DNA of 64,000 nucleotides from Methylopila sp. Yamaguchi (GTDB lineage: Bacteria; Pseudomonadota; Alphaproteobacteria; Rhizobiales; Methylopilaceae): positions 248,001 through 312,000 of the forward strand of contig NZ_BAUX01000001.1 in the NCBI RefSeq assembly GCF_002897035.1. Reading direction: 5' to 3'. The notes beneath the pieces were generated by a model. It ran no database searches. It saw only the letters and a program-made list of their open reading frames with translations, and was not told the origin of the DNA. Shown one piece after another: positions 34,783 through 57,195 of the stretch; position 1 is the stretch's first letter; every line of letters starts with the position of its first letter. Both the position numbers and the translations under genes were made by a program.

Positions 34783-35232
34783 TCAACACGTCGACGAACC
34801 GCAGCCCGCCCCTTGGTCCAGAAAGTCCCGCAAGGCGCGATCGATCGCGCCGGCGTCCCTAAGTTCGCATTCCCACAGAACGAGGAATCCCCAACCTTGG
34901 GCGGCGAGATCGTCCAGCGCGCGGACGTCACGGGCGCGGTTGCGGTCGATCTTCGCGCGCCAATACTCCGCGTTGGTCTTCGGCATGCGGCTTCCGCGCG
35001 CGCAATCGTGGCCGTGCCAGAAGCAGCCGTGCACGAAGATGACCTTCCGGCGCGCGGGAAAGACGAGATCCGGGCTGCCCGGGAGGTCCTTGCGGTGCAG
35101 GCGAAAGCGATAGCCCAGAGCGTGGGCGGCGCGGCGCACCAGCATTTCGGGCTTGGTGTTCCGGCCTTTCACCGCCCGCATGACGGCGGAGCGGGCTTCG
35201 GGGGTCTGCGGAGGCGCGGGGTTCCGGTTCAC
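34783..35232 (-). CDS. vsr: very short patch repair endonuclease Vsr
   Basis: 149 aa from a GTG at 35232 whose overlap with the dcm stop is GTGA, so it is coupled to dcm. Family pattern: RSAVMRAVKGRNTKPEMLVRRAAHALGYRFRLHRKDLPGSPDLVFPARRKVIFVHGCFWHGHDCARG, with the catalytic Asp in PGSPDLVFP and the zinc/active HGCFWHGHDC motif. It nicks at T:G mismatches caused by deamination of 5-methylcytosine, reducing the mutagenic cost of its partner methylase. Confidence 0.95.
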   Translation of the reverse strand: MNRNPAPPQTPEARSAVMRAVKGRNTKPEMLVRRAAHALGYRFRLHRKDLPGSPDLVFPARRKVIFVHGCFWHGHDCARGSRMPKTNAEYWRAKIDRNRARDVRALDDLAAQGWGFLVLWECELRDAGAIDRALRDFLDQGAGCGSSTC

Positions 35233-36383
35233 GCGGTGCGCCGCGCGGCCACCCCGCGGCCGAGCAGCGGCTCCAGCAGTTCGTGGGCGAGGAACCGCAC
35301 CACCGGCACGGCGACGCCGTCGCCCGCAAGCCGGTAGGCGTCGTTGTAGTTCGAGGGCAGCGCGTAGGCGTCGTCGAGCCCCATGAGGCGGGCGGCCTCG
35401 CGCGCCGACATCAGCCGCGAGCGCACGACGCCGTTCTCGACCACCAGCAGCGTCTGCCGGCTGGAGCCCCCGGCGGGCGTGCGCAGACAGCCGGCGACGC
35501 CGTCGAACCGCGCCTCCGCGCGCTGCACCTTCGCCCCCGACGCGTCGAGCCGCATGCGGCGGTAAACCGCGCCGACCCGGCGGAGCCCGGAGGCCTTGAG
35601 GCTTTCGATGCGGGCGCGGTGGAGCGGCGCCATCAGCGCGAGCAGGGCCTCGGTTTCGTGCGGCTCGCGCCATCGCACTCCGGCGGGCTCGTCCTCGACG
35701 ATGTCCTCGAGCGCGCGCGCATTGACGCGCGGCGCCTGCAGGCGCCACCAGATCCAGGCCTTCTGCGCTTCGGGACCAAGCGCGGCGTGGGCGGTGTGCA
35801 GCGCCTTCGGGCGGAAAGCGGACGGCGCGCCGGGGACCGGATCGACGGCCGAGGCCGGCAGATCGACGTCTTCGGCGATCGCCACGATGAAGAGGCGCGG
35901 GCGCGACTGCGGGAGGAACAGAGCGGCGTCCACCACCAGCGCGCCGAACTGGTAGCCGGCGTCGCTCAGCGCGGCGCCGATAGACGCGAAGTCGCGCCCG
36001 CCACGCGAGGTCAGCGCCCCGCAGACGTTCTCGAGCACCAGGGTCTTCGGCGCGCGGCCTTCCGCCTTGAGCCCGAGGATCGCGCTCCAGAAACCCCAGA
36101 ACGCGCCGGAGCGCGCGCCGGCGAGGCCGGCCTTGGCGCCGGCGAGCGACAGGTCCTGGCAGGGAAAGGAGCCCCAGGCGAGATCCGCCCGCCCGGGGAG
36201 CATTGCGGGCGTCACGGCGTGGACGTCGCCCACGTGCAGGTGGTCCCCGCCGAAGTTCGCGCGGTAGGCGGCGGCCTTCTTGGGGCTGAGATCGTTCGCG
36301 AACAGGCAGCGCCAGCCGGACCCGAGGCCGACCCGGGCCATGCCGCCGCCTGCGAAGAACTCATAAAAGGTGAGTTCGCTCAC
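35229..36383 (-). CDS. DNA cytosine-C5 methyltransferase (Dcm-like)
   Basis: 384 aa. Motif I FYEFFAGGGMARVGLG, motif IV GSFPCQDLSLAG with the catalytic Cys, motif VI ENVCG, motif VIII QSRPRLFIVA, and motif X LPSNYNDAYRLAGDGVAVPVVRFL. The target-recognition segment lies between about 215 and 315. It pairs with Vsr, like E. coli Dcm-Vsr, and has no restriction enzyme beside it. It lies in otherwise core chromosome, between the GGDEF gene and DUF1508. The sequence it recognises cannot be read. Confidence 0.95.
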   Translation of the reverse strand: MSELTFYEFFAGGGMARVGLGSGWRCLFANDLSPKKAAAYRANFGGDHLHVGDVHAVTPAMLPGRADLAWGSFPCQDLSLAGAKAGLAGARSGAFWGFWSAILGLKAEGRAPKTLVLENVCGALTSRGGRDFASIGAALSDAGYQFGALVVDAALFLPQSRPRLFIVAIAEDVDLPASAVDPVPGAPSAFRPKALHTAHAALGPEAQKAWIWWRLQAPRVNARALEDIVEDEPAGVRWREPHETEALLALMAPLHRARIESLKASGLRRVGAVYRRMRLDASGAKVQRAEARFDGVAGCLRTPAGGSSRQTLLVVENGVVRSRLMSAREAARLMGLDDAYALPSNYNDAYRLAGDGVAVPVVRFLAHELLEPLLGRGVAARRTA

Positions 36384-36712: not shown

Positions 36713-39700
36713 TCAGTGGAAATCGCGCGATTTCGGCAGAATGCGCACGTCGCGCGGGTGCGCGCGCGGCTGCTGCGGGCGGTCGGGCTGCGGACGGCGC
36801 ACCTCGTCGGCCCGCGCCAGCGGCGGCTCAAGCCGCCGACTCGACAGGCGGGAAAGCTCGTGGGTGCGGTCGACGAGACGCTCCGCCACCAGATGGACGA
36901 TCCCTTCGGGGCTGCGCTGGACGCGTCCCTCGATCTGGATCAGCCGGGCGGCCATCACCTCGCGGCGAAAGCGGAGGAGTACGGCCGGCCAGACCACGGC
37001 GTTCGCAACCCCCGTCTCGTCGGCGATGGTCATGAACACGACGCCCTTGGCGCTCCCTGGCTTCTGACGGACGAGCACGACGCCGGCCGTCGTCAGCCGC
37101 CGCCCGTCCCGGGCGTTCCTGACGTCCGTGCAGGAGACCGCGCCCTCCCGCGCGAACAGGTCGCGCAGGAACTGCATGGGATGGCCTTTGAGGGAGAGCC
37201 GGGTCGTCTGGTAGTCCGCGACCACATGCTCCGACAGCCCCATTTCGGGAAGCGCCTCGCTCCCTTCCTCGGCGCCGAGGTCCGCCGCGTCCGCCGCCTC
37301 GAACAGGGGCAGCGCGACGTCGTCCGGCAACCGCCGCACCTCCCAGAGGGCCGCGCGCCGGTCGAGCCTCATCGAGCGAAAGGCGTCGGCGTCGGCGAGC
37401 TTGACCAAAGCGGCCTTCGGCAACCGCGCCCGCCGCTTCAGATCGTCGATCGAGGCGAAGCCGCCCCCGCGCGCCGCGACCAGCGCCTCCGCCCAGTCCT
37501 TCCGAAACCCGTCGATCTGCCGAAAGCCGATGCGCAGGCGCAGCGCGTCGTCCGGCCGCTTCTCCAGCGTGTTGTCCCATTGGCTGACCGCGACGTCCGC
37601 CCCACGGGTCTCGACGCCGTGCTCGCGGGCGTCCCGCACGATCTCGGCCGGGGCGTAGAACCCCATGGGCTGGGAGTTGAGCAGCGCGCAGGCGAAAGCC
37701 GCGGGATGCCGGCATTTCAGATAGGAGGAGATGTAGACCAGCTTGGCGAAGCTCGCGGCGTGGCTCTCGGGAAAGCCGTAGGAGCCGAAGCCCTCGATCT
37801 GCTTGAAGCAGTTCGCCGCGAACTCCGGATCGTAGCCGCGCGCGATCATGTTCCCGACCATCTTGTCCCGGAACACGCCGATATCGCCGAGGTTGCGGAA
37901 GGTCGCCATGGCCCGGCGCAGGCCGTTGGCCTCCTCGCCGGAAAACTTGGCCGCCACCATGGCGATGCGCATGGCCTGCTCCTGGAACAGCGGCACCCCG
38001 AGCGTCTTCCCCAGCACGTTCCTCAGTTCGTCCGGGTCGTGCGGCGGTCCGGGCTCGGGGTACACGACCAGCTCCGGATTCCGGCGGCGCTTGAGATAGG
38101 GATGGACCATGTCGCCCTGGATCGGCCCCGGCCGCACGATCGCGACCTGGATGACGAGGTCGTAGAACTCCTTCGGCTTCAACCGCGGCAGCATGTTCAT
38201 CTGCGCGCGGCTCTCGACCTGGAACACGCCGAGCGAGTCCCCGCGCGACAGCATGGCGTAAACGTCCTTCTGGTCCGGCTCGATGGTCGCGAGCTCGAGC
38301 TCTTGACGTTCGTGGACGCGGATGAGGTCGAAGGCCTTGCGGATGCAGGTCAGCATCCCGAGCGCGAGCACGTCGACCTTCATCATCCGGACGGCGTCGA
38401 TGTCGTCCTTGTCCCATTCGATGAAGCTGCGGTCCGGCATCGCGGCCGGCCCCACGGGCACGCATTCGTCGAGCCGATCGTCGGTCAGCACGAAGCCGCC
38501 CACGTGCTGAGACAGATGGCGCGGAAATCCGACAAGCTCGCTCGCGAGCTTCAGCGCCGGCAAAAGATAGGGGTTCGACGGGTCGAGGCCCGCTTGGCGG
38601 ACCTGCGCCTCCGTCAGCCCCTCGCCCCAGCTCCCCCAGACCGTGTTGGCGAGCGCGGCGGTCAGGTCCTCGCCCATCCCGAAGACCTTGCCGACCTCGC
38701 GCACGGCGCTGCGCGGCTTGTAGTGGATGACCGTGGCGACCAGCGACGCGCGCTCACGGCCGTAGCGCGCGTAGATGTGCTGAATGACCTCCTCGCGCCG
38801 CTCATGCTCGAAGTCGACGTCGATGTCCGGCGGCTCCGAGCGCTCCTTGGATAAAAACCGTTCGAACAGGACGTTGGACTCGGCCGGATCGACCGCGGTG
38901 ATCCCGAGCACGTAGCAGACCGCGGAGTTCGCCGCCGACCCGCGCCCCTGGCAGAGAATGCCCTGCGCCCGCGCGTAGGCCACGACGTCATGCACGGTCA
39001 GGAAGTAATGCGCGTAGTTCTCGCGCTTGATGAACGCCAGCTCCTTGGCGACCAGCTTCGCCACCTCCGGAGGCGTCCCCCGGGGATAGAACCGCTCGAG
39101 GCCCTCGCGCACGAGGTCGCGCAAATGGCCGTGCGGCGTCTTGCCGGCGGGCACCGGCTCGTGCGGGTAATTGTACTTCAGGTCCGCGAGACTGAAGACG
39201 ACCTGCTCCGTGAACCGCAGCGTCTCCGTCACCGCTTCCGGCGCGTCCCGGAACAGCCGGGCCATTTCGACTCCCGGCTTCAGGTGCCGCTCGGCGTTCG
39301 CCTCCAGCCTGCGGCCCGCGCCGTCGAGCGTCACGCCCTCGCGGATGCAGGTGACGACGTCGAGGAGCGGGCGCCGGTCGGGCGTGTGGCAGAGCGGCTC
39401 GTTGGTGGCGAGAAGCGGGACGCCGACGCGGGACGCCAGGCGCTTCAGCCGGGCAAGCCTGCGGGCGTCGTCGCCGCGCCGCGGCATGGCGGCGCCGAGC
39501 CAGGTCGCGTCGCGGCCCGTCTCCTTCAGCGCCGCGAGCGCGCGCTCCGTCTCGCGGCCGGGCGCCCGCGACGGCATGACGATGGCGAGCAATCCCTCGC
39601 GCCACGCCAGCAGGTCCTCGAAGAACAGGCGGCACTCGCCCTTCGGGGCGCGCCCCTTGCCGAGGCTGAGCAGACGGCAGAGCCGCCCCCAGGCGGCGCG

Positions 39701-39964
39701 GTCGCGCGGATGGACGACGACGTCGGGCGCATCGTCCTCGAATACCAGACGCGCGCCCACCACCAGCTTCGGCGTTGGTTGCGGCAAGTCCTTGTTGCCG
39801 AGCGTCGCATAGGCGCGGACGACGCCCGCGACGGAGTTCACGTCCGCGATCCCGATGGCCTCGAGCCCATAGAACGCCGCGGCCGCGACGTACTCCTCCG
39901 GCCGCGAGCCGGCGCGGAGGAAGGAGAAAGCCGTCATGGCGGCGAGTTCGGCGAAGGCGGTCAT
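36713..39964 (-). CDS. dnaE2: error-prone DNA polymerase DnaE2 (ImuC)
   Basis: 1083 aa, shorter than DnaE1 because it lacks the C-terminal tau-binding extension. The N-terminal PHP domain (FAELAAMTAFSFLRAGSRPEEYVAAAAFYGLEAIGIAD) is followed by the C-family polymerase palm with GRGSAANSAVCYVLGITAVDP and PPDIDVDFEHERREEVIQHIY (catalytic Asp residues), then an HhH and OB-fold region. The ATG at 39964 overlaps the imuB stop (ATGA). It performs translesion synthesis with ImuA and ImuB under SOS induction. Confidence 0.96.
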   Translation of the reverse strand: MTAFAELAAMTAFSFLRAGSRPEEYVAAAAFYGLEAIGIADVNSVAGVVRAYATLGNKDLPQPTPKLVVGARLVFEDDAPDVVVHPRDRAAWGRLCRLLSLGKGRAPKGECRLFFEDLLAWREGLLAIVMPSRAPGRETERALAALKETGRDATWLGAAMPRRGDDARRLARLKRLASRVGVPLLATNEPLCHTPDRRPLLDVVTCIREGVTLDGAGRRLEANAERHLKPGVEMARLFRDAPEAVTETLRFTEQVVFSLADLKYNYPHEPVPAGKTPHGHLRDLVREGLERFYPRGTPPEVAKLVAKELAFIKRENYAHYFLTVHDVVAYARAQGILCQGRGSAANSAVCYVLGITAVDPAESNVLFERFLSKERSEPPDIDVDFEHERREEVIQHIYARYGRERASLVATVIHYKPRSAVREVGKVFGMGEDLTAALANTVWGSWGEGLTEAQVRQAGLDPSNPYLLPALKLASELVGFPRHLSQHVGGFVLTDDRLDECVPVGPAAMPDRSFIEWDKDDIDAVRMMKVDVLALGMLTCIRKAFDLIRVHERQELELATIEPDQKDVYAMLSRGDSLGVFQVESRAQMNMLPRLKPKEFYDLVIQVAIVRPGPIQGDMVHPYLKRRRNPELVVYPEPGPPHDPDELRNVLGKTLGVPLFQEQAMRIAMVAAKFSGEEANGLRRAMATFRNLGDIGVFRDKMVGNMIARGYDPEFAANCFKQIEGFGSYGFPESHAASFAKLVYISSYLKCRHPAAFACALLNSQPMGFYAPAEIVRDAREHGVETRGADVAVSQWDNTLEKRPDDALRLRIGFRQIDGFRKDWAEALVAARGGGFASIDDLKRRARLPKAALVKLADADAFRSMRLDRRAALWEVRRLPDDVALPLFEAADAADLGAEEGSEALPEMGLSEHVVADYQTTRLSLKGHPMQFLRDLFAREGAVSCTDVRNARDGRRLTTAGVVLVRQKPGSAKGVVFMTIADETGVANAVVWPAVLLRFRREVMAARLIQIEGRVQRSPEGIVHLVAERLVDRTHELSRLSSRRLEPPLARADEVRRPQPDRPQQPRAHPRDVRILPKSRDFH

Positions 39965-41514
39965 CCGAACAGGCCGTGCAGGAACCAGCGCGGATGCTCC
40001 GCCTCACGGACGTAAAGCCCGTCGCGGTAGAGCCAGAACCGGGCGCCTTCCGCGTCCTCCACCCGAAAGTAGTCGCGCGTCAGCGCGCCCGGGTCCCGCC
40101 GCCACCATTCGAGCGCGATCCGCTCCGGCCCCTCCGCGCGGGCGACCGCATGCGCCACCCGCCGCCACAGGAAACGGATCGGCGGCCCGTCCGGCACCTC
40201 GGCCAGAACCTCGATCGGCTCTGGATCGGCGAACAGCCGCAAGGGGCGGCGCGGCGGCTCCGCGAGGGACGGAGCGGGCCAGTTCGCCGCACGCGCAGCC
40301 GATCGCCCGCCCCCGGCCGACATGGCCTGGGCCGGGCGCGCCCGCACTTCGCCCTCCGGACGATGAACGTCGCCGGCCAGGAAGCGCAGCACGCGGCGGC
40401 GGCCATGGCGCGCGGCGAGCCGGTCGACCAGCTCCGCGACCGCTCCTTCCTCCGCCGCGCCCGGATCGAGGCTGACGGCCTCGGGGGCGAGCGGCTCGAC
40501 AGCGAGCGCCGACAGCCGGACGAGATCGAAGCCGAAGCCGGGATCGATCGGATCCGCCAGCGCGTCGAGCCGCTCCCTGAGGAGCCGCAGCAGCATCTCC
40601 GGATCCCGCGTCGGCCGGCCGGTCGCGACCGAGATCCGCGAGACCTTGCCGTCGGCGCGGAAGAAGGCGGCCTCGACGCGGGTCACGCCCTCGCCCGCGG
40701 CCTCGAGCCTGCCGGCGAGCGCGCCCGCAAGCGCCCGGCACGCCGCGACGACCGCATCCTGGGTGAGAACGGGGTCGGGAAACCGGCGCTCGATCATCCG
40801 CGCCGGCGCGGGGCGCCGTGGCGAAATCGGCGGATCGACCCTGCCGAGCGCCTGGTCGAGGGCCGCCACGAGACCGGAGCCGAACCGCGCGGCGAGTTCG
40901 CCCCGGCCGCGGGCCGCGAGTTGGCCGAGCGTCGTCAGGCCGGCGCGGGCGAGGCCGACGCGGACCGCCTCGGCGGGCCCCAGGGCCGCGACCGGCAGCG
41001 CCGAAAGGCGCGCGCGTTCCTCCTCCGGCGTCGCCACGCCCCCGGCCGTGAACCAGGCCAGCGCCCGGGCGACGCCGGCCCCGCCCGCGACCGTGACGCG
41101 GGCGGTGAGGCCCTGGCGCGCGAGCGCCTCAGCCACATCCTGCGCCATCGCCGCCTCGCCGCCGAAGAAATGCGCGCAGCCCGCGACGTCGAGCAGCAGG
41201 CCATAGGGCGGATCGAGCGCGACGAGCGGGGTGTAGCGGTCGCACCAGTCGGCCACCGCCGTGAGCAGGGCGTGATCGGCCGCGGCGTCGGCCGGGACCA
41301 CGCGCAGGTCCGGACGGATCGCGCGCGCCTCCGTCAGCGGCAGTCCGGGCCTCGCGCCCGCGGCCTCCGCCGCGGCGTCGACGGCCACGATGCGGAGCGT
41401 CGCGCCCTGGCGCTCGACGATGACGAGCGGGCGGTCATCCGGCGCGTCGGAGCCCGCCGCCCGCTCCCGCCGCCGCACCCGTTCGACGGGCAGGTTCGGC
41501 AAGGCGACCGCCAT
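39961..41514 (-). CDS. imuB: ImuB, inactive Y-family polymerase-like protein
   Basis: About 517 aa from the ATG at 41514, which has GGAGG seven bases upstream. The frame opens further upstream, to an ATG at 41577 and a TTG at 41592, but without a good site. Y-family fold (MAVALPNLPVERVRRR, PLVALDPPYGLLLDVAGCAHFFGGE, then LGQLAARGRGELAARFG) but with the catalytic acidic residues not conserved. The C-terminus PRWFLHGLFG is typical of ImuB. It is the hub that ties ImuA and DnaE2 to the beta clamp. It overlaps the 3' end of imuA by 80 bases. Confidence 0.94.
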   Translation of the reverse strand: MAVALPNLPVERVRRRERAAGSDAPDDRPLVIVERQGATLRIVAVDAAAEAAGARPGLPLTEARAIRPDLRVVPADAAADHALLTAVADWCDRYTPLVALDPPYGLLLDVAGCAHFFGGEAAMAQDVAEALARQGLTARVTVAGGAGVARALAWFTAGGVATPEEERARLSALPVAALGPAEAVRVGLARAGLTTLGQLAARGRGELAARFGSGLVAALDQALGRVDPPISPRRPAPARMIERRFPDPVLTQDAVVAACRALAGALAGRLEAAGEGVTRVEAAFFRADGKVSRISVATGRPTRDPEMLLRLLRERLDALADPIDPGFGFDLVRLSALAVEPLAPEAVSLDPGAAEEGAVAELVDRLAARHGRRRVLRFLAGDVHRPEGEVRARPAQAMSAGGGRSAARAANWPAPSLAEPPRRPLRLFADPEPIEVLAEVPDGPPIRFLWRRVAHAVARAEGPERIALEWWRRDPGALTRDYFRVEDAEGARFWLYRDGLYVREAEHPRWFLHGLFG

Positions 41515-42286
41515 GATCCTCCGCGCCGGGATTGAGGCTTCCGGCGTTCCGTGCGGCAACGGCGAAGCTACGCTCATGGCCGTCCCACCCAAGCGTCCAC
41601 CGCCCGAGGCCGCCGCGACGGTTGCGCACCAGTTCGACGTGAAAGCGCGGTCGTCCCCAGTCCTCCTCTCCAGGAGGCGAGGCTGCGGGGGCGACCCGCC
41701 AGCGCGTCTCCGCCGCCGAGAATCCCACGGGCGCGGCGAGCGAGGGGGCTCCCGCCCGCACCACGATCGCCGGCACGCCGGAGCGGCCGGCGGCGAGCGC
41801 CAGCCGCCGCACCGCGACGCGGTCGAACGCCGCCAGACGACCGAAGGGCTCGATCAGCGTGACCGCGAGAGCCGGGCAGGCGAGCGCGGCTTCCGCCGCG
41901 CGCAGCGTCGCCGCCTCGTCCGGCGCGCGCACCACCACCAGCCGGTCGGGATCGAAGCCGAGCTCCGCCAGCCCCATCGGCCAGGGCTCCCCGGTCTCGC
42001 GCCCGGACATGTCCTGTCGGATCCATACCGCCGTCCTCCCCCGCCGTCCCGCCTTGACGGCGAGCGCGACCGCAAAACCCGTAGCCGCCACGGCCCCCGC
42101 CGCGGACGCGCCCGACACTGCGTGCAGGGCTCCGCGCCGGAGCCCGCCGCCGAGCGCCGCGTCCATCTCGGGCACGCCGAGGACGATCCGCTCCTCCGCG
42201 CCGAGAGCCCCCGACGCGTCGGCCTCGATGCGGGCCACAACCGTCCTGAGCGCGTCGAGCGTCTCCGCCGCAGCGCGCGTGGTCAT
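41435..42286 (-). CDS. imuA: ImuA, SOS mutagenesis accessory protein
   Basis: 283 aa from the ATG at 42286 (MTTRAAAETLDALRTVV). RecA-like remnant fold: VLGVPEMDAALGGGLRRGALHAVSG, AVWIRQDM, RLVVVRAPDEAATLRAAE. It lacks a full Walker A, as usual for ImuA. The LexA-type box at 42305-42319 lies 19 bp upstream, so this is the first gene of an SOS operon imuA-imuB-dnaE2. An upstream TTG at 42301 would nearly overlap the box and is unlikely. Confidence 0.93.
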   Translation of the reverse strand: MTTRAAAETLDALRTVVARIEADASGALGAEERIVLGVPEMDAALGGGLRRGALHAVSGASAAGAVAATGFAVALAVKAGRRGRTAVWIRQDMSGRETGEPWPMGLAELGFDPDRLVVVRAPDEAATLRAAEAALACPALAVTLIEPFGRLAAFDRVAVRRLALAAGRSGVPAIVVRAGAPSLAAPVGFSAAETRWRVAPAASPPGEEDWGRPRFHVELVRNRRGGLGRWTLGWDGHERSFAVAARNAGSLNPGAEDHGGRLAEPARRTGAAAGAGGGLRRAG

Positions 42287-42304
42287 CGTTGAAATCCGCA
42301 AAAG

Positions 42305-42319
42305 TTCTTGTTCTGTTCT
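42305..42319. promoter_or_regulatory. LexA (SOS) box ahead of imuA
   Basis: GTTC at 42305-42308 and GTTC at 42316-42319 separated by 7 nt on the plus strand, i.e. GAAC-N7-GAAC on the strand of imuA. This direct repeat is the established LexA site of many alphaproteobacteria. Its position 19 bp before the imuA start fits repression of imuA-imuB-dnaE2. Confidence 0.8.
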
Positions 42320-42422
42320 CTTATAGAGAGCGCCTCAAAACTGAGTCAAGACGCCGCACACGAGACCGCGGGAGCCTCCTGTCCCCCACTGTCGGGAGAC
42401 TCACCGGAGCACCTCTTGATCG

Positions 42423-42437
42423 GAACAAATATCGAAC
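42423..42437. promoter_or_regulatory. second LexA (SOS) box ahead of the radical SAM gene
   Basis: GAAC at 42423-42426 and GAAC at 42434-42437 separated by 7 nt, on the same strand as the radical SAM gene whose GTG is 40 bp downstream. Same repeat as the imuA box, 103 bp away between box edges. It suggests separate LexA control of the divergent radical SAM/UdgX operon. Confidence 0.75.
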
Positions 42438-42476
42438 ATATGGTCGGCATCAAGCTGGGAACAGAGAAAGAACTCC

Positions 42477-43721
42477 GTGGACATCACCGCCAAGCTCGCC
42501 ATCCTCGCCGACGCCGCGAAATACGACGCGTCCTGCGCCTCGAGCGGCACGGACAAGCGCACTTCGGCGGGGTCGAAGGGCGGCCCGGCGCGCGGACTCG
42601 GCTCCACCGAGGGGGCCGGCATATGCCACTCCTACGCCCCCGACGGCCGCTGCATCTCGCTGCTCAAGATCCTGCTGACCAACGCCTGCGCGTTCGATTG
42701 CCTCTATTGCGTCAACCGCGCCACCAGCAACACGCCGCGCGCCCGGTTCACGGTCGAGGAGGCGGTGACGCTCACGCTCGACTTCTACCGGCGCAATTAC
42801 ATCGAAGGGCTGTTCCTCTCCTCCGGCGTCATCCGCAACGCGGACTACACGATGGAGCAGGTGATGCGGGTGGCGAAAAGCCTTCGCCTCGACCACGGCT
42901 TCAAGGGCTACATCCACCTCAAGACCATTCCGGACGCCGCGCCCGAGCTGATCGCGGAAGCCGGCCTCTACGCCGACCGGCTGTCGATCAACGTCGAGCT
43001 GCCCAATGAGACCAGCCTGAAGCGCCTCGCGCCCGAGAAGGATTTGCGCGCCGTCCGCCGCACCATGGCCGATCTGCGCGGTCGGATCGAGGAGGCGAAG
43101 GAGCCGACCGCCGCCGGCCGCGCCCGCCCCCCGCGCTTCGCGCCCGCCGGCCAGAGCACCCAGATGATTGTCGGCGCCGACGCCTCCGACGACCGGGCCA
43201 TTCTGACGACCTCCGCGAACCTCTATGGCTCCTACCGGCTGAAGCGGGTCTATTTCTCCGCCTTCAGCCCGATCCCGGACGCAAGCGCCGCCCTGCCGCT
43301 GGCCGCGCCGCCGCTGGTGCGCGAGCACCGGCTCTATCAGGCCGACTGGCTGATGCGGTTTTACGGTTTCAACGTCGCCGAGATCACCGAAGGCGGCGGC
43401 ATGCTGGACCTCTCGATCGATCCGAAGCTCGCCTGGGCCCTGCGTCACCGCGAGCAGTTCCCGCTCGACGTCGCCCGCGCCTCCCGCGAACAGCTGCTGC
43501 GCACGCCCGGCCTCGGCAAGACGGTGGTCGACCGGATACTGTCGGCCCGCCGCTTCCGGATGCTGAGGGTCGAGGATCTCCGCCGCATGCGCGCGCCGCT
43601 CGCCAAGGCCCTGCCCTTCCTCAAGCTTGCGGACCACACCCCCTCGATCACGACGCTCGAAAGCGAGCGCCTGATCGAACGCTTCGTTCCCCAGCCGCGG
43701 CAGATGGCGCTCGCGCTGTGA
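42477..43721 (+). CDS. putative DNA modification/repair radical SAM protein
   Basis: 414 aa from the GTG at 42477, with GAGAAAG 10 bases upstream. The radical SAM cluster CAFDCLYC (Cx3Cx2C) is at about residues 70-77, then a TIM-barrel like core (FLSSGVIRNADYTMEQVMRV, IHLKTIPDAAPELIAEAG). Near the C-terminus a helix-hairpin-helix, LLRTPGLGKTVVDRILSAR, gives DNA binding. This family is known to be genetically linked to a UDG-fold partner, and that partner follows with a GTGA overlap. The reaction is not known. Confidence 0.92.
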   Translation: MDITAKLAILADAAKYDASCASSGTDKRTSAGSKGGPARGLGSTEGAGICHSYAPDGRCISLLKILLTNACAFDCLYCVNRATSNTPRARFTVEEAVTLTLDFYRRNYIEGLFLSSGVIRNADYTMEQVMRVAKSLRLDHGFKGYIHLKTIPDAAPELIAEAGLYADRLSINVELPNETSLKRLAPEKDLRAVRRTMADLRGRIEEAKEPTAAGRARPPRFAPAGQSTQMIVGADASDDRAILTTSANLYGSYRLKRVYFSAFSPIPDASAALPLAAPPLVREHRLYQADWLMRFYGFNVAEITEGGGMLDLSIDPKLAWALRHREQFPLDVARASREQLLRTPGLGKTVVDRILSARRFRMLRVEDLRRMRAPLAKALPFLKLADHTPSITTLESERLIERFVPQPRQMALAL

Positions 43722-45160
43722 GCCCGCGGCGGATCGCGCTCGCGGGGCCCTCGGACGTCGCAGGCTGGCGCGCGGCCGCCCGCGCGCTGGCCTCCGAAGG
43801 CGTGCACCCGCACGACGTCGTCTGGACCGTGAACGGCGATGGCGGCGACCTGTTCGCGGCGCCTGTCGCGACGGAGGCGCCGCCGCTCGCCCCCTCCGCG
43901 CTCTCGGTGCCGCGCGCCTTCCTCGATCTGGCCGAGGTCGCGCTGCTGCACAGCGATCCCGGCCGCTTCGACCTCTGCTACCGGCTGCTGCTGCGGCTCG
44001 CCGCCGACCGCACCCTCCTGGGGGACGCCGCCGATCCCGACGTCGTGCGCGCGCACGGCCTCGCCAAGGCCGTGCGGCGCGACAAGCACAAGATGACCGC
44101 CTTCGTTCGCTTCCGGGAAGTCGCGCGCGATGACGGCGCATGGTTCGTCGCCTGGTTCGAGCCGGAGCACCACATCGTCGAGGCGACCGCGCCGTTCTTC
44201 ATGCGCCGGTTCGCGGCCATGCGCTGGTCGATCCTGACGCCGGAGCGATCCGCGCATTGGGACGGCGCCACGCTCGCGTTCGGCGAAGGCGGCCGTCGCG
44301 CCGACGCGCCGGACAGCGACGTTTTGGAGGACGCCTGGCGGACCTACTACGCCAGCATCTTCAATCCCACCCGGCTGAAGGTCCACGCCATGCGAGCGGA
44401 GATGCCGCGGAAGTACTGGCGCAACCTTCCGGAGGCTTCGCTCATTCGTCCCCTGATCGCTTCGGCGGCGAAGGCGACGGCCGACATGGTCGCCGCCCCC
44501 GCGCCGGAGCCGAAGAAAGGCCAGCGCATGACGCCAATCGAAGCCTCCCCCGACCGCGGCGAACCGTCCTCGCTGCAGGCGCTGCATGACGAGGTCGACG
44601 CGTGCCGCGCCTGCCCGCTGTGGGAGCCCGCGACCCAGGCGGTGTTCGGCGAAGGGCCGCCCACCGCGACGGTCGTCGTCGTGGGCGAGCAGCCCGGCGA
44701 CAAGGAGGACATCGCCGGCCGTCCGTTCGTCGGCCCCGCGGGCGCGCTGTTCGACAAGGCCGCACGGGAAGCCGGCCTCGAACGCGACAAGGTCTACGTC
44801 ACCAATGCCGTGAAGCACTTCAAGTTCGAACCGCGCGGCAAATTCCGGCTGCACAAGACGCCAGGTCCGACCGAGATCAACGCCTGCCGTCCCTGGCTGG
44901 AGCGCGAACTCACCCTCCTGAAGCCTCAGCTCGTGGTGGCGATGGGCGCCACCGCAGCCCGAGCGGCGTTCGGAAAGCCGGTGAAGGTGGGCGAGCACCG
45001 TGGGCGCATCGCCCGCCGCGACGGCGCGCCGGACGTGCTGGTGACGGTGCATCCGTCCTATCTGCTGCGCCTGCCGGACGAAGCGCGTAGGGAAGAGGAG
45101 TACCGACGCTTCGTCGACGATCTCGCTCTCGCGGCGAACTATCTCGCGGAAGCGGCCTGA
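43718..45160 (+). CDS. UdgX-type uracil-DNA glycosylase fused to radical-SAM-linked domain
   Basis: 480 aa, GTG start overlapping the radical SAM stop. The first 270 residues (PRRIALAGPSDVAGWRAAARALASEGVHPHDVVWTVN, then FRRFAAMRWSILTPE type segment) form the conserved domain linked to the radical SAM partner. The last 190 are a family-4-like UDG of UdgX type: CRACPLWEPATQAVFGEGP, GEQPGDKEDIAGRPFVGPAG, VTNAVKHFKFEPRGKFRLHKTP, VTVHPSYLLRL. The His in FRLHKTP matches the residue by which UdgX forms a covalent bond to uracil-DNA. So it may mark or trap uracil in DNA. The Cys ligands for the iron-sulfur cluster (CRAC and the later Cys) are present. Confidence 0.93.
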   Translation: MSPRRIALAGPSDVAGWRAAARALASEGVHPHDVVWTVNGDGGDLFAAPVATEAPPLAPSALSVPRAFLDLAEVALLHSDPGRFDLCYRLLLRLAADRTLLGDAADPDVVRAHGLAKAVRRDKHKMTAFVRFREVARDDGAWFVAWFEPEHHIVEATAPFFMRRFAAMRWSILTPERSAHWDGATLAFGEGGRRADAPDSDVLEDAWRTYYASIFNPTRLKVHAMRAEMPRKYWRNLPEASLIRPLIASAAKATADMVAAPAPEPKKGQRMTPIEASPDRGEPSSLQALHDEVDACRACPLWEPATQAVFGEGPPTATVVVVGEQPGDKEDIAGRPFVGPAGALFDKAAREAGLERDKVYVTNAVKHFKFEPRGKFRLHKTPGPTEINACRPWLERELTLLKPQLVVAMGATAARAAFGKPVKVGEHRGRIARRDGAPDVLVTVHPSYLLRLPDEARREEEYRRFVDDLALAANYLAEAA

Positions 45161-54773: not shown

Positions 54774-55658
54774 TTAATCGAGAACGAATTGGATCAAAGG
54801 TTTTAAGTCATGCTGCCAAAATAACGCTACATTTTGATTATTTTGCGCGTCAGATAAGCATTTTAGATCATAGACGCCGGCGAGAAGGGCACCCGTTACA
54901 ACTTGTGAACCGTACGCGTTCCTCCAAGTTTCCGCCTTACCACCAACCTCGCGCTGCAATCGCTTCCAACTATTCTTTGGACCATTGGATACTTTGCATT
55001 CCAAGGCAAGAAGCCGACCGTCTTTTAGGCGAATAGGAATGTCGCATTTTGCCGACCCAACCTTTCGCTCCCGGGAGAAGTGCGCTCGTGCCAATCCGTC
55101 GAGCGCAGCAAGTGGTCTTCTCGAAGCGTCGATAGTCAGTTCGGCGAGGACAAGAGCCTCCGACACCGCGTCCTCTTGCTTTTTAGATGCCCCTCCCCGC
55201 CGGCTCGTACCAAGCCGCTCGTGGGCGAGCAGGGTCGCCGTCGCCATTACGGCCGCGTCTCTTTCTTCCGTGGAAGGTATCCGCCCAGCGAGAACCCAAG
55301 GAAACCGTTTCAAATCGACGAGATCCGAAATTACCTGCGCTGACTTTTCCGCATAGTTCTTAGGTACATTCTTAAATTTTTTGCCCACTAACGTCCAAAG
55401 GTCTTCTTCACTAATCCGCGGCGCGCACATGTAACGAAGGATCTGCCACAGCCCCTTTCTCGACAATAGGTCCTGCCCTTCGATCTTTGTAAGATCCTCC
55501 GTGGCAGACAGAGCCGCGCGAATCTGCGGCTCTACGATGTCCCATGTGCCATGATACGCAGCAGGGCCTTCGTTTTGACGTTCCGCTATAAAGCGTAGCT
55601 CCGCTAAATCTCTATCGGTCTTCAGCTCCTCATCCGACCATCTCAGCGGATTTGCCAT
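54774..55658 (-). CDS. type II restriction endonuclease, XamI-like
   Basis: 294 aa, ATG at 55658 lying inside the end of the methyltransferase gene (29-base overlap) with GAGAAG upstream, so the pair is coupled. The PD-(D/E)XK core is visible: CDIPIRLKDGRLLALECKVSNGPKNSW with Asp and the ExK pair. The N-terminal part (RWSDEELKTDRDLAELRFIAERQ, then LSATEDLTKIEGQDLLSRKGLWQILRYMCAPRISEEDL) recalls the XamI family, whose known members cut GTCGAC. That assignment rests on layout only; recognition is not proven. Confidence 0.7.
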   Translation of the reverse strand: MANPLRWSDEELKTDRDLAELRFIAERQNEGPAAYHGTWDIVEPQIRAALSATEDLTKIEGQDLLSRKGLWQILRYMCAPRISEEDLWTLVGKKFKNVPKNYAEKSAQVISDLVDLKRFPWVLAGRIPSTEERDAAVMATATLLAHERLGTSRRGGASKKQEDAVSEALVLAELTIDASRRPLAALDGLARAHFSRERKVGSAKCDIPIRLKDGRLLALECKVSNGPKNSWKRLQREVGGKAETWRNAYGSQVVTGALLAGVYDLKCLSDAQNNQNVALFWQHDLKPLIQFVLD

Positions 55659-56808
55659 TCAGCTTCTCGCGTGCGGCCCTGCGATGGGCACCGTTCGTGA
55701 TTTCCTCCATTTCGGTGTAACGAACTCGCTTGCTGAAACAAGAGGGCCAACCAACCGATTTTCCGTTGCCACGGCCAACCGAGTGGGCTGCGGCGAATAG
55801 CTCCCGCCCGATCGCTCTGCCGATATCGCCCTGAACAGCGTTGCCAATTTGCCGGAACCGCGAAGCTAAGGACCGTCCGTCAAAAACCCAATCTGTTGGA
55901 AATCCCTGCAGGCCCGCGCACTCCCTCCATGTCAGCCGTCGTAGATCTGCTTGACTAGTTCGCAGCCAATCCGGTGTCGAAGCCGCTCGTATTGTCCGAC
56001 TGGGAACCGTCAAATCGGCAACAAAACAATCCTGTCGGTAGCCCCAATGGCCGCTGGGTCGATTGGCCTCAACGAGCCCGACCGACCGAAGGCCCGTGCC
56101 TGGTTTCAGAGCCATAAGCTCTGCTACGCGGCGACCTTTCGGCCGAACGACGTCGGCAGCGTCGGGAGCTCGCTGGGCCGCTAGAAATTGACCAAGCGTT
56201 CGCCATGGCGAAAGGCTTTGGCTACCGTCGCGACAATGACTTGGGAGCGGGAAGTGAGGGGGCGTCTCTTTGTACGCCGCGATCATGTACAGTCGGACAC
56301 GTCGCTGAGCGGCTCCGAAATCGGCCGCGTTAAGCAAGTCAAACCGGCACGCATAACCTAAATTTTCAAACTCCGACTGTATTTCCCGTAGAATACCGCC
56401 GACATCCCCGTGCGCGCCCTTAGCTGTTACAAGACCAGCGACATTCTCAAACAAAATAAATCTTGGCCGGGTTTCTGCGGCGATCCGAACGAACTCTTTA
56501 AAAAGCTGCCCACGCGGATCGTCCAGCCCTTTCATTCGCCCGGCGGAACTAAATGGCTGACATGGCGGCCCCCCCGCTAATAGGTCCAGACGCGTCCCTT
56601 CGGGTAGCAGGTCGCCCCCTCTGACGTCGCGGATATCAGCGTGAACGACGTTGCAACCTCTCAGGCGGCCAGCTGCGCGATTGCTTCGTAGCGTTTGAAC
56701 CGCATCACGATCAATCTCGACGGCCGCTAATGTTCGCCAACCGGCCTCTTCCAAGCTCGCCGAGAGGCCGCCAGCACCAGCAAACAGGTCAATTGATGTG
56801 TACGCCAC
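55630..56808 (-). CDS. DNA cytosine-C5 methyltransferase of the R-M pair
   Basis: 392 aa. Motif I SIDLFAGAGGLSASLEEAGW, motif IV GGPPCQPFSSAGRMKG with the catalytic Cys, motif VI FENVAG, motif VIII AAQRRVRLYMIA, and motif X SRFRQIGNAVQGDIGRAIGREL. It protects host DNA against the coupled endonuclease. The protein continues about 40 residues past motif X, over the start of the endonuclease gene. GC is lower than in the core genes, as expected for an acquired island. Confidence 0.95.
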   Translation of the reverse strand: MAYTSIDLFAGAGGLSASLEEAGWRTLAAVEIDRDAVQTLRSNRAAGRLRGCNVVHADIRDVRGGDLLPEGTRLDLLAGGPPCQPFSSAGRMKGLDDPRGQLFKEFVRIAAETRPRFILFENVAGLVTAKGAHGDVGGILREIQSEFENLGYACRFDLLNAADFGAAQRRVRLYMIAAYKETPPHFPLPSHCRDGSQSLSPWRTLGQFLAAQRAPDAADVVRPKGRRVAELMALKPGTGLRSVGLVEANRPSGHWGYRQDCFVADLTVPSRTIRAASTPDWLRTSQADLRRLTWRECAGLQGFPTDWVFDGRSLASRFRQIGNAVQGDIGRAIGRELFAAAHSVGRGNGKSVGWPSCFSKRVRYTEMEEITNGAHRRAAREKLNGKSAEMVG

Positions 56809-57195
56809 AGCCTGCGCTCCCGAACAGAACGCGAACTTTCTAATGCGATTTGGCTACGGATTGATAGGGGGCAGGCGGCCACTCCCGTCCAAAATTTCTT
56901 GCAAGCCCCTGCACGCGCCGGCTCGCTTTTGAGAACTCGCCGCGGTGCATAGTTCACATGGCCTTTTTAGGGTACCCGACCCGATGACTCTCGCAAAAAT
57001 AGGCTGAAATTTTGGTCACATCGGAGAGAGGGAGGGGGCAGCCGCCTAGCTCCGTTTTCAATAACAAGTACCAAAATGAGCACACGCGTCGGCCTTAGTC
57101 GCATACATCAATGGCAAATAATCTATGTCTCTCGTATTACTCTGGTATTACAGCTTTATAGGGAGCGTTATCGCGTCGAGGCGCACTCCGGTCTC
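56809..57195. other. intergenic region of the R-M island
   Basis: The 387 bases between the methyltransferase start and the serine recombinase stop contain no convincing gene. The part near 56990-57180 is AT-richer and is likely to carry the promoter of the minus-strand methyltransferase-endonuclease pair. I see no clear C-box type repeats. Confidence 0.3.

Follow-up and report, generated by a model that had tools for sequence, protein, structure and literature searches.

Background

Operons that pair genes of COG1573 and COG4277 have been published as SOS-controlled, in Bacteroidetes in PMC8565304 and, by citation in the available portion of that paper, in Verrucomicrobia and in Alphaproteobacteria such as Caulobacter, with Erill 2016 and Paes da Rocha 2008 given as prior work. 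SplB is likewise treated there as SOS-controlled. The accessible part of PMC3765255 links DUF4130 to radical S-adenosylmethionine (radical SAM) and uracil-DNA glycosylase (UDG) proteins. UdgX, according to the sections available of PMC10359453, cuts out uracil and stays bound to the DNA through a histidine, and it has been proposed to protect abasic sites. Here we describe a locus that brings these components together in Methylopila sp. Yamaguchi. It lies in a stretch of 64,000 nucleotides (contig NZ_BAUX01000001.1, positions 248,001 to 312,000), hereafter the window, in whose own numbering all coordinates are given. In it, a radical SAM gene and a DUF4130-UdgX gene form an operon that is divergent from imuA-imuB-dnaE2 (imuABC), and the region between the two appears to be under LexA control in both directions.

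In the literature searched, UdgX, radical SAM and SOS were not found together in one paper, and the words SOS, operon and radical were not found in the main text of the UdgX biochemistry literature that we checked. The COG, TIGR and DUF identifiers of the pair were seldom named. Joining the two literatures, one on an orphan cross-linking enzyme and one on an orphan radical enzyme, would give a single testable SOS pathway.

By COG description the window carries the same gene pair as the published SOS operons, again with predicted LexA control. It differs from them in that its UDG half is UdgX-type by sequence, fused to DUF4130 and optional among relatives, and in that its operon runs divergently from imuABC and carries an additional box across the leader. 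The radical SAM protein belongs to TIGR03916, which we take to be equivalent to COG4277. The UdgX domain resembles UdgX of M. smegmatis (PDB 6ail, 6iod and others) in fold, in sequence (49–51% identity), in the GEQPG motif and in the histidine of the R-loop, whereas in the window it follows DUF4130 in one fused protein, the gene for which comes after a radical SAM gene. Its R-loop reads KFRLH, compared with KRRIH in M. smegmatis in the available text of PMC10359453. The imuA-like, imuB-like and dnaE2 genes appear to be the same three that make up the Caulobacter mutasome cassette, in which, as far as the partial source text goes, imuA is LexA-controlled. Here a box likewise lies at the imuA promoter, but the cassette faces a divergent radical SAM operon. 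Finally, SplB and PA0069-type proteins share the radical SAM core, and SplB has been published as SOS-controlled, whereas the window protein fits the TIGR03916 model, has extra N-terminal cysteines and is partnered by DUF4130. What sequence comparison adds to these precedents is an apparent switching of the box with the host's LexA type across a draw of genomes from one phylum, a seemingly optional UdgX within SOS control, a six-cysteine pattern, and repeated placement beside or inside imuABC.

Three LexA boxes between divergent operons

The radical SAM gene (42477–43721, plus strand) begins with a GTG at 42477 and encodes 414 amino acids with a C-terminal helix-hairpin-helix (HhH) region; its product scores 549.3 bits against a curated TIGR03916 cut-off of 343.5. 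The DUF4130-UdgX gene (43718–45160, plus strand) overlaps it by 4 bases and encodes a 480-amino-acid protein in which DUF4130 (TIGR03915, residues ~12–240; 216.9 bits, cut-off 112.25) is followed by UdgX (TIGR03914, residues 242–471; 317 bits, cut-off 190). On the minus strand are an imuA-like gene (41435–42286, ATG at 42286), an imuB-like gene (39961–41592) and dnaE2 (also imuC; 36713–39964), which encodes an error-prone DNA polymerase. DnaE2 is over the NF004225 cut-off (1440 bits, cut-off 939), and ImuB is over those of Pfam IMS and IMS_C and below every NCBIfam cut-off. The ImuA-like protein had no match in a Pfam search and matches NF033429 weakly (36.5 bits, cut-off 150), so its name leans partly on gene position, together with aligned relatives. 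The nearest named relative that we found is M. capsulata, whose radical SAM protein is 98% identical.

We scanned the whole window on both strands for exact matches to GAAC-N7-GAAC, the alpha-type LexA box. Box 1 (GAACAGAACAAGAAC, 42304–42318, minus strand) begins one base past the TATAAG -10 element of a putative imuA promoter, TTGACT-N18-TATAAG (42320–42349, minus strand), that was read by eye, and is 17 bp from the imuA ATG. It is identical, at a nearly equal distance, in three Methylopila-like loci (L049, L053 and L061, of which L049 and L061 are the same in that stretch). Box 2 (GAACAAATATCGAAC, 42423–42437, plus strand), the predicted operator of the radical SAM operon, is located 39 bp from the GTG and inside the spacer of a putative promoter, TTGATC-N17-TATGGT (42416–42444, plus strand), also read by eye. 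In 16 of the 26 loci listed, this genome included, a TTG occurs no more than 8 bp ahead of the box. Box 3 (GAACAGAGAAAGAAC, 42459–42473, plus strand) overlaps the leader and ends 3 bp before the GTG. It is kept in L049, L053 and L061, in which the sequence separating it from box 2 is not that of the window. The first-pass annotation of this DNA had proposed two boxes only. Its second was correctly placed, its first shifts by one base (from 42305–42319), the distances of 19 and 40 bp that it gave for imuA and the radical SAM gene are slightly too long, and box 3 had been overlooked.

The 190 bp that separate the ATG of imuA from the GTG of the radical SAM gene contain three of the four exact matches in the window, against approximately 0.007 predicted there from the window-wide rate by our own arithmetic. 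The total of four, against 2.23 expected, is reached in 17 of 100 shuffles and so is not significant alone; allowing a single mismatch gives 36 matches, no more than the 48 expected. Because the box counts in the window are weak and one-mismatch matches are no more frequent than chance, our case is built on relatives.

The box follows the LexA type of the host

TIGR03916 proteins over the cut-off are present in 28 of 101 near genomes, including the genome of the window. Caulobacter vibrioides, used as a control genome, gave a TIGR03916 match as well. An exact box lies within 300 bp of the start in 27 of these 28 loci (the window's own, L051, among them), and the remaining locus has a box with one mismatch. 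This count keeps L057 and L058, in which the radical SAM match runs across two frames, through either a frameshift or a sequencing error.

In a set of 80 named loci, searched over 210 bases, the exact box is found in 62 of 67 alphaproteobacteria and a box with at most one mismatch in all 67; random windows from the flanks of alphaproteobacterial loci contained an exact box in 14 of 2680 cases. Twelve named loci are from other groups. Four of these have CTGT-N8-ACAG exactly and four with one mismatch, and the rest are one Chthoniobacteraceae record with TGTTC-N4-GAACA and three xanthomonads with GTCTCA-N5-TGAGAC. One further record, L113 ('Proteobacteria bacterium'), has an exact alpha-type box and was placed in neither group. 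We refer to CTGT-N8-ACAG as the E. coli-type box.

A draw of 398 genomes across the phylum gave 84, about a fifth, with a protein over the TIGR03916 cut-off. Five of these (G000, G005, G040, G051 and G092) were already in the near-relative set and were left out, so that 79 loci remained, 50 of them alphaproteobacterial and 29 not. Start codons were chosen by script, and the box search ran from 200 bases before the start to 10 bases into the gene. Every one of the 50 alphaproteobacterial loci has an exact alpha-type box (33/33 plus 17/17), as do all 44 that remain when six loci with divergent imuA are removed. Among the 29 other loci, CTGT-N8-ACAG precedes 24 (19 exact, five with one mismatch), the xanthomonad palindrome precedes three (at most one mismatch) and two have no box. 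The exact box of the other group was found in 0 of 50 and 0 of 29 loci, respectively. With one mismatch, an E. coli-type box occurs in 3 of the 50 and an alpha-type box in 3 of the 29, all three of which also have an exact E. coli-type box. The two genomes without a box have, against a LexA cut-off of 111 bits, in one case no match over 62.8 bits and in the other a match of 99.6 bits.

The predicted box thus follows the LexA type of the host, a pattern that shared promoter ancestry does not predict. Nor does the neighbourhood explain the box, because 39 of the 50 alphaproteobacterial loci and all 29 others showed no imu gene in the flanks that were fetched. A box that switches type with its host is unusually strong comparative evidence for a function in the damage response, and the predicted control of the radical SAM operon by LexA is strongly supported. 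The first-pass annotation had made the same prediction and had named absence of the box from relatives with the same gene order among the findings that would speak against it. The box is instead kept in relatives, with or without the shared gene order, and the prediction is supported on this point.

Copies on mobile or phage-labelled records were also inspected. A large Caballeronia plasmid (L167, NC_021289.1) has, as read by eye, an exact CTGT-N8-ACAG just before its radical SAM gene. A gut 'Bacteriophage sp.' record (L166, MT835514.1) has, again by eye, a TATAAT ahead of its radical SAM gene with two one-mismatch copies of GAAC-N4-GTTC around it, an arrangement that we assume to resemble the Firmicute-type SOS box. 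Ten phage-labelled records matched in all. Of the two that were opened, one had bacterial neighbours and one had no annotation, and none was shown to be phage. The record labelled 'Acinetobacter phage MD-2021a' (L165, CAKLQH020000003.1) looks bacterial, because glyS and glyQ adjoin the pair.

A radical SAM-DUF4130 core with optional UdgX

DUF4130 is encoded beside the radical SAM gene in 77 of the 79 loci of the phylum draw, and a UDG domain in 56. UDG was first scored by a regular expression, and both domains were recounted by tblastn, with two rows differing. Among the 23 loci without UDG, 20 have a closed DUF4130 frame (L193 with only 2.1 kb downstream), two (L218 and L219) have no DUF4130, and one (L238) is cut by a contig end; these last three all carry a box. 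In L218 and L219 the box is exact and no DUF4130 match occurs within 3.6 kb downstream of the radical SAM gene. A host-type LexA box precedes 18 of the 20 closed-frame operons without UdgX (16 of 18 outside the Alphaproteobacteria and both of those within), and UdgX presence changes at least eight times on the gene tree. To judge from gene content, radical SAM and DUF4130 make up the conserved core, and UdgX is an optional addition. Because these 18 operons keep the host-type box, the SOS-controlled function would belong first to the radical SAM and DUF4130 proteins, and a role in handling uracil becomes secondary.

The UdgX domain of the window carries motif A (GEQPG) and the R-loop histidine at position 379. 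Every aligned row that covers this position (53 of 53) has the histidine, and GEQPG hardly varies. Fold comparison matches the domain to M. smegmatis UdgX with TMt of 0.84–0.95, and the 50 matches listed for the fused protein comprise UDG-type proteins together with a polymerase and an unnamed protein. The DUF4130 domain had no relative among solved structures, the sole match touching that part having an E value of 0.32. The first-pass annotation had suggested action on modified or uracil-containing DNA; the UdgX domain and its R-loop histidine are in keeping with this, and uracil as the main substrate is less well supported, given the 18 boxed operons that do without UdgX.

The radical SAM protein and a possible second metal site

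The radical SAM protein is over the cut-off of Pfam Radical_SAM and reaches 22.1 bits with HHH_5, below the cut-off of 27. Cysteines 71, 75 and 78 correspond to the radical SAM cluster, and cysteines 20, 50 and 59 with histidine 51 form a possible second metal site. All six cysteines and histidine 51 are present in 68 of 68 aligned rows. Five of six distant homologues retain the whole set of Cys20, Cys50, His51 and Cys59, and the sixth, from Gemmatirosa (38% identity), has lost the four together. Joint keeping and joint loss suggest the pattern expected of a shared metal site.

The fold matches listed for this protein (50, of 82 at E ≤ 0.001) include HydE, viperin, MiaB, LipA and other radical SAM enzymes. 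All are partial, spanning 200–362 alignment columns with query-normalised template-modelling (TM) scores of 0.34–0.42. A search of solved structures with the radical SAM profile gave weak partial matches to HhH proteins, HydE and others, the best with an E value of 0.016.

Recurrent linkage to imuABC

In the near relatives, imuA is found within a 1.5-kb flank in 4 of 28 loci. Flanks of approximately 7 kb upstream and 3.5 kb downstream were fetched for the phylum draw (six loci had shorter ones), and imu genes occur in those of 11 of the 50 alphaproteobacterial loci. Six of the 11 are divergent (Bradyrhizobium-type) and five are on the same strand. In four of the same-strand loci, from one non-Rhizobiales family, the pair is flanked by imuA and imuB on its upstream side and by dnaE2 on its downstream side; the fifth, whose upstream flank is short, shows dnaE2 alone. 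The terms Bradyrhizobium-type and sphingomonad-type denote, for loci of the draw, likeness to the named loci L063, L065 and L076 and to L131 and L133, respectively. In the named set, in which several contigs are short, 5 of 80 loci are divergent and two more have imu genes nearby; L062, where ImuA is matched weakly at the locus edge (E value 2e-5), was not counted as linked.

Random placement would give linkage in approximately 0.4% of loci by our own estimate from flank length and genome size. On the gene tree the linkage label changes at least three times among the rows of the draw, and six times when hand-picked linked loci are added. Linkage to imuABC as a recurrent but not essential association is supported by these comparisons. 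A link to ImuABC, and a search of relatives for the divergent arrangement, had both been part of the first-pass proposal. The arrangement does recur, in 6 of 50 alphaproteobacterial loci of the draw and in the five named loci, but it is not essential, since most loci show no imu gene in the fetched flanks.

LexA-type sites elsewhere in the genome

The genome of the window encodes LexA (183 bits, cut-off 111); ahead of the lexA open reading frame (ORF) are three exact boxes, which start 201, 96 and 63 bp from it. The recA match has an exact box approximately 113 bp upstream, and another separates ssb from a divergent ORF. The gene for a radical SAM protein of the PA0069 family (L142:396–1538, contig C3) has an exact LexA-type box 25 bp ahead of its reading frame and is, on this reading of its promoter, a second, separate SOS-type radical SAM gene in this genome. 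Genome-wide, GAAC-N7-GAAC has 110 matches compared with 51 for the backward-read pattern, and therefore many single matches are noise; 12 further box neighbourhoods were fetched, the ORFs of six were scanned, and not all resembled SOS genes. A peptide deformylase gene (L147:892–1464, contig C9) has a box-like GAACAAATAAAGAAC ahead of it.

A xanthomonad-like palindrome

The palindrome GTCTCA-N5-TGAGAC occurs at 46 sites in 26 of 40 genomes of one non-alphaproteobacterial family, and the reversed pattern at none (L156–L161 and L247–L292). We call this group xanthomonad-like from the named records L074, L087 and L098. Fourteen sites are at a helicase gene, seven at the radical SAM gene and one at uvrA. 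The helicase is 72–99% identical to a TIGR03817-like protein, and two part-length proteins that were scanned score below the TIGR03817 cut-off. One ORF was scanned for each of 20 of the other 24 sites, which gave recA, rmuC and an Lhr-type helicase once each, and otherwise dnaB, CRISPR genes, and unrelated or unnamed genes. These sites may constitute a small damage regulon with its own regulator.

Proposed mechanism and alternatives

We propose that the imuA-radical SAM intergenic region is a divergent SOS control region. LexA at box 1 would block the imuABC promoter, and LexA at box 2, within the -35/-10 spacer, would block the radical SAM-DUF4130-UdgX operon, probably with help from box 3 over the leader; DNA damage would release both operons. 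The radical SAM enzyme, with its HhH-like DNA-binding end, and DUF4130 would then act directly on damaged DNA, perhaps using in the reaction a second iron-sulfur or metal site formed from Cys20, Cys50 and Cys59. UdgX, where present, would remove uracil and trap the abasic site covalently through His379, and such trapping might shield abasic sites while ImuABC copies past lesions.

The genes, the boxes and the conservation of the predicted control are well supported, and the gene pair is a strong candidate for a repair pathway. We consider the proposal as a whole, that is a divergent SOS control region with a radical SAM-DUF4130 repair core and an optional UdgX, to be reasonably probable. We suggest more tentatively, as a possibility that we would not yet lean on, that the operon constitutes a separate branch of the damage response, in which a LexA-controlled HhH radical SAM enzyme that has a second metal site and is nearly always partnered by DUF4130 carries out an undescribed DNA repair reaction, with UdgX as an optional suicide trap beside the ImuABC mutasome.

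Several observations weigh against this proposal. One-mismatch boxes are weak evidence, as they occur in approximately 11% of random alphaproteobacterial windows (alpha-type) and 3% of others (E. coli type). Two of the 29 non-alphaproteobacterial loci have no box, and the rows are related, so the counts are not independent events. With the proteins of the window as queries, imu genes were found in the fetched flanks of none of those 29 loci and were not found in those of 39 of 50 alphaproteobacterial ones, six of the flanks being short. In Bradyrhizobium-type loci a single exact box lies between the divergent genes; that box sits at the imuA promoter and so does not speak for the radical SAM gene being controlled separately in these loci. 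In addition, the stretch with the extra cysteines is modelled poorly (predicted local distance difference test, pLDDT, below 50 in most of residues 18–59), and because the structure model is unreliable there the case for a second metal site draws on conservation.

The radical SAM enzyme might instead be a SplB-like lyase that directly reverses thymine photoproducts or other base adducts. Its radical SAM core, HhH-like end and SOS control fit this, and the available part of PMC3765255 ties DUF4130 to SplB-like radical SAM proteins and UDGs and uses the label 'SplB-like radical SAM photolyase'. However, spore photoproduct lyase is not among the 50 fold matches listed (of 82 at E ≤ 0.001), and the genome has the separate, SOS-boxed PA0069-family protein; we regard a SplB-like activity as unlikely.

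It is similarly doubtful that the role of the radical SAM and DUF4130 proteins is to process or release cross-links, be it the covalent adduct between UdgX and DNA or others of the DNA-protein or interstrand kind. Resolution of UdgX adducts by RecA-dependent pathways or proteases is proposed in the text accessible of PMC10359453, and the xanthomonad-like operon shares its rare palindrome with the TIGR03817-like helicase (14 of 46 sites), uvrA (one) and recA (one). Yet UdgX adducts cannot be the general substrate, because operons without UdgX exist.

We give rather little credence to the idea that the module mainly repairs uracil in DNA, with UdgX acting on uracil left or inserted during the SOS response and the radical SAM enzyme merely assisting. 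The UDG domain in 56 of 79 operons and the invariant cross-linking histidine favour such a role, and the portion available of PMC8565304 terms the pair a uracil-DNA glycosylase base excision system. Against it stand the 20 operons of 79 that lack UdgX, 18 of them with a host-type box, and the repeated changes in UdgX presence on the tree.

That the radical SAM box is a chance match, or a by-product of the imuA control region with no role of its own, is very improbable: the motif is common in the genome and in Bradyrhizobium-type loci the sole exact box is at the imuA promoter, but exact boxes precede all 44 alphaproteobacterial genes without divergent imuA, compared with 14 of 2680 random windows, and 24 of 29 other hosts have a box of their own LexA type with at most one mismatch.

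Other features of the window

The fourth exact GAAC-N7-GAAC match in the window (56822–56836, plus strand) is isolated, just upstream of a 392-amino-acid ORF on the minus strand (55630–56808), and may be due to chance. On the far side of the imuABC cassette, a gene for a C5-cytosine DNA methyltransferase (35229–36383, minus strand; over the TIGR00675 cut-off) adjoins dnaE2.

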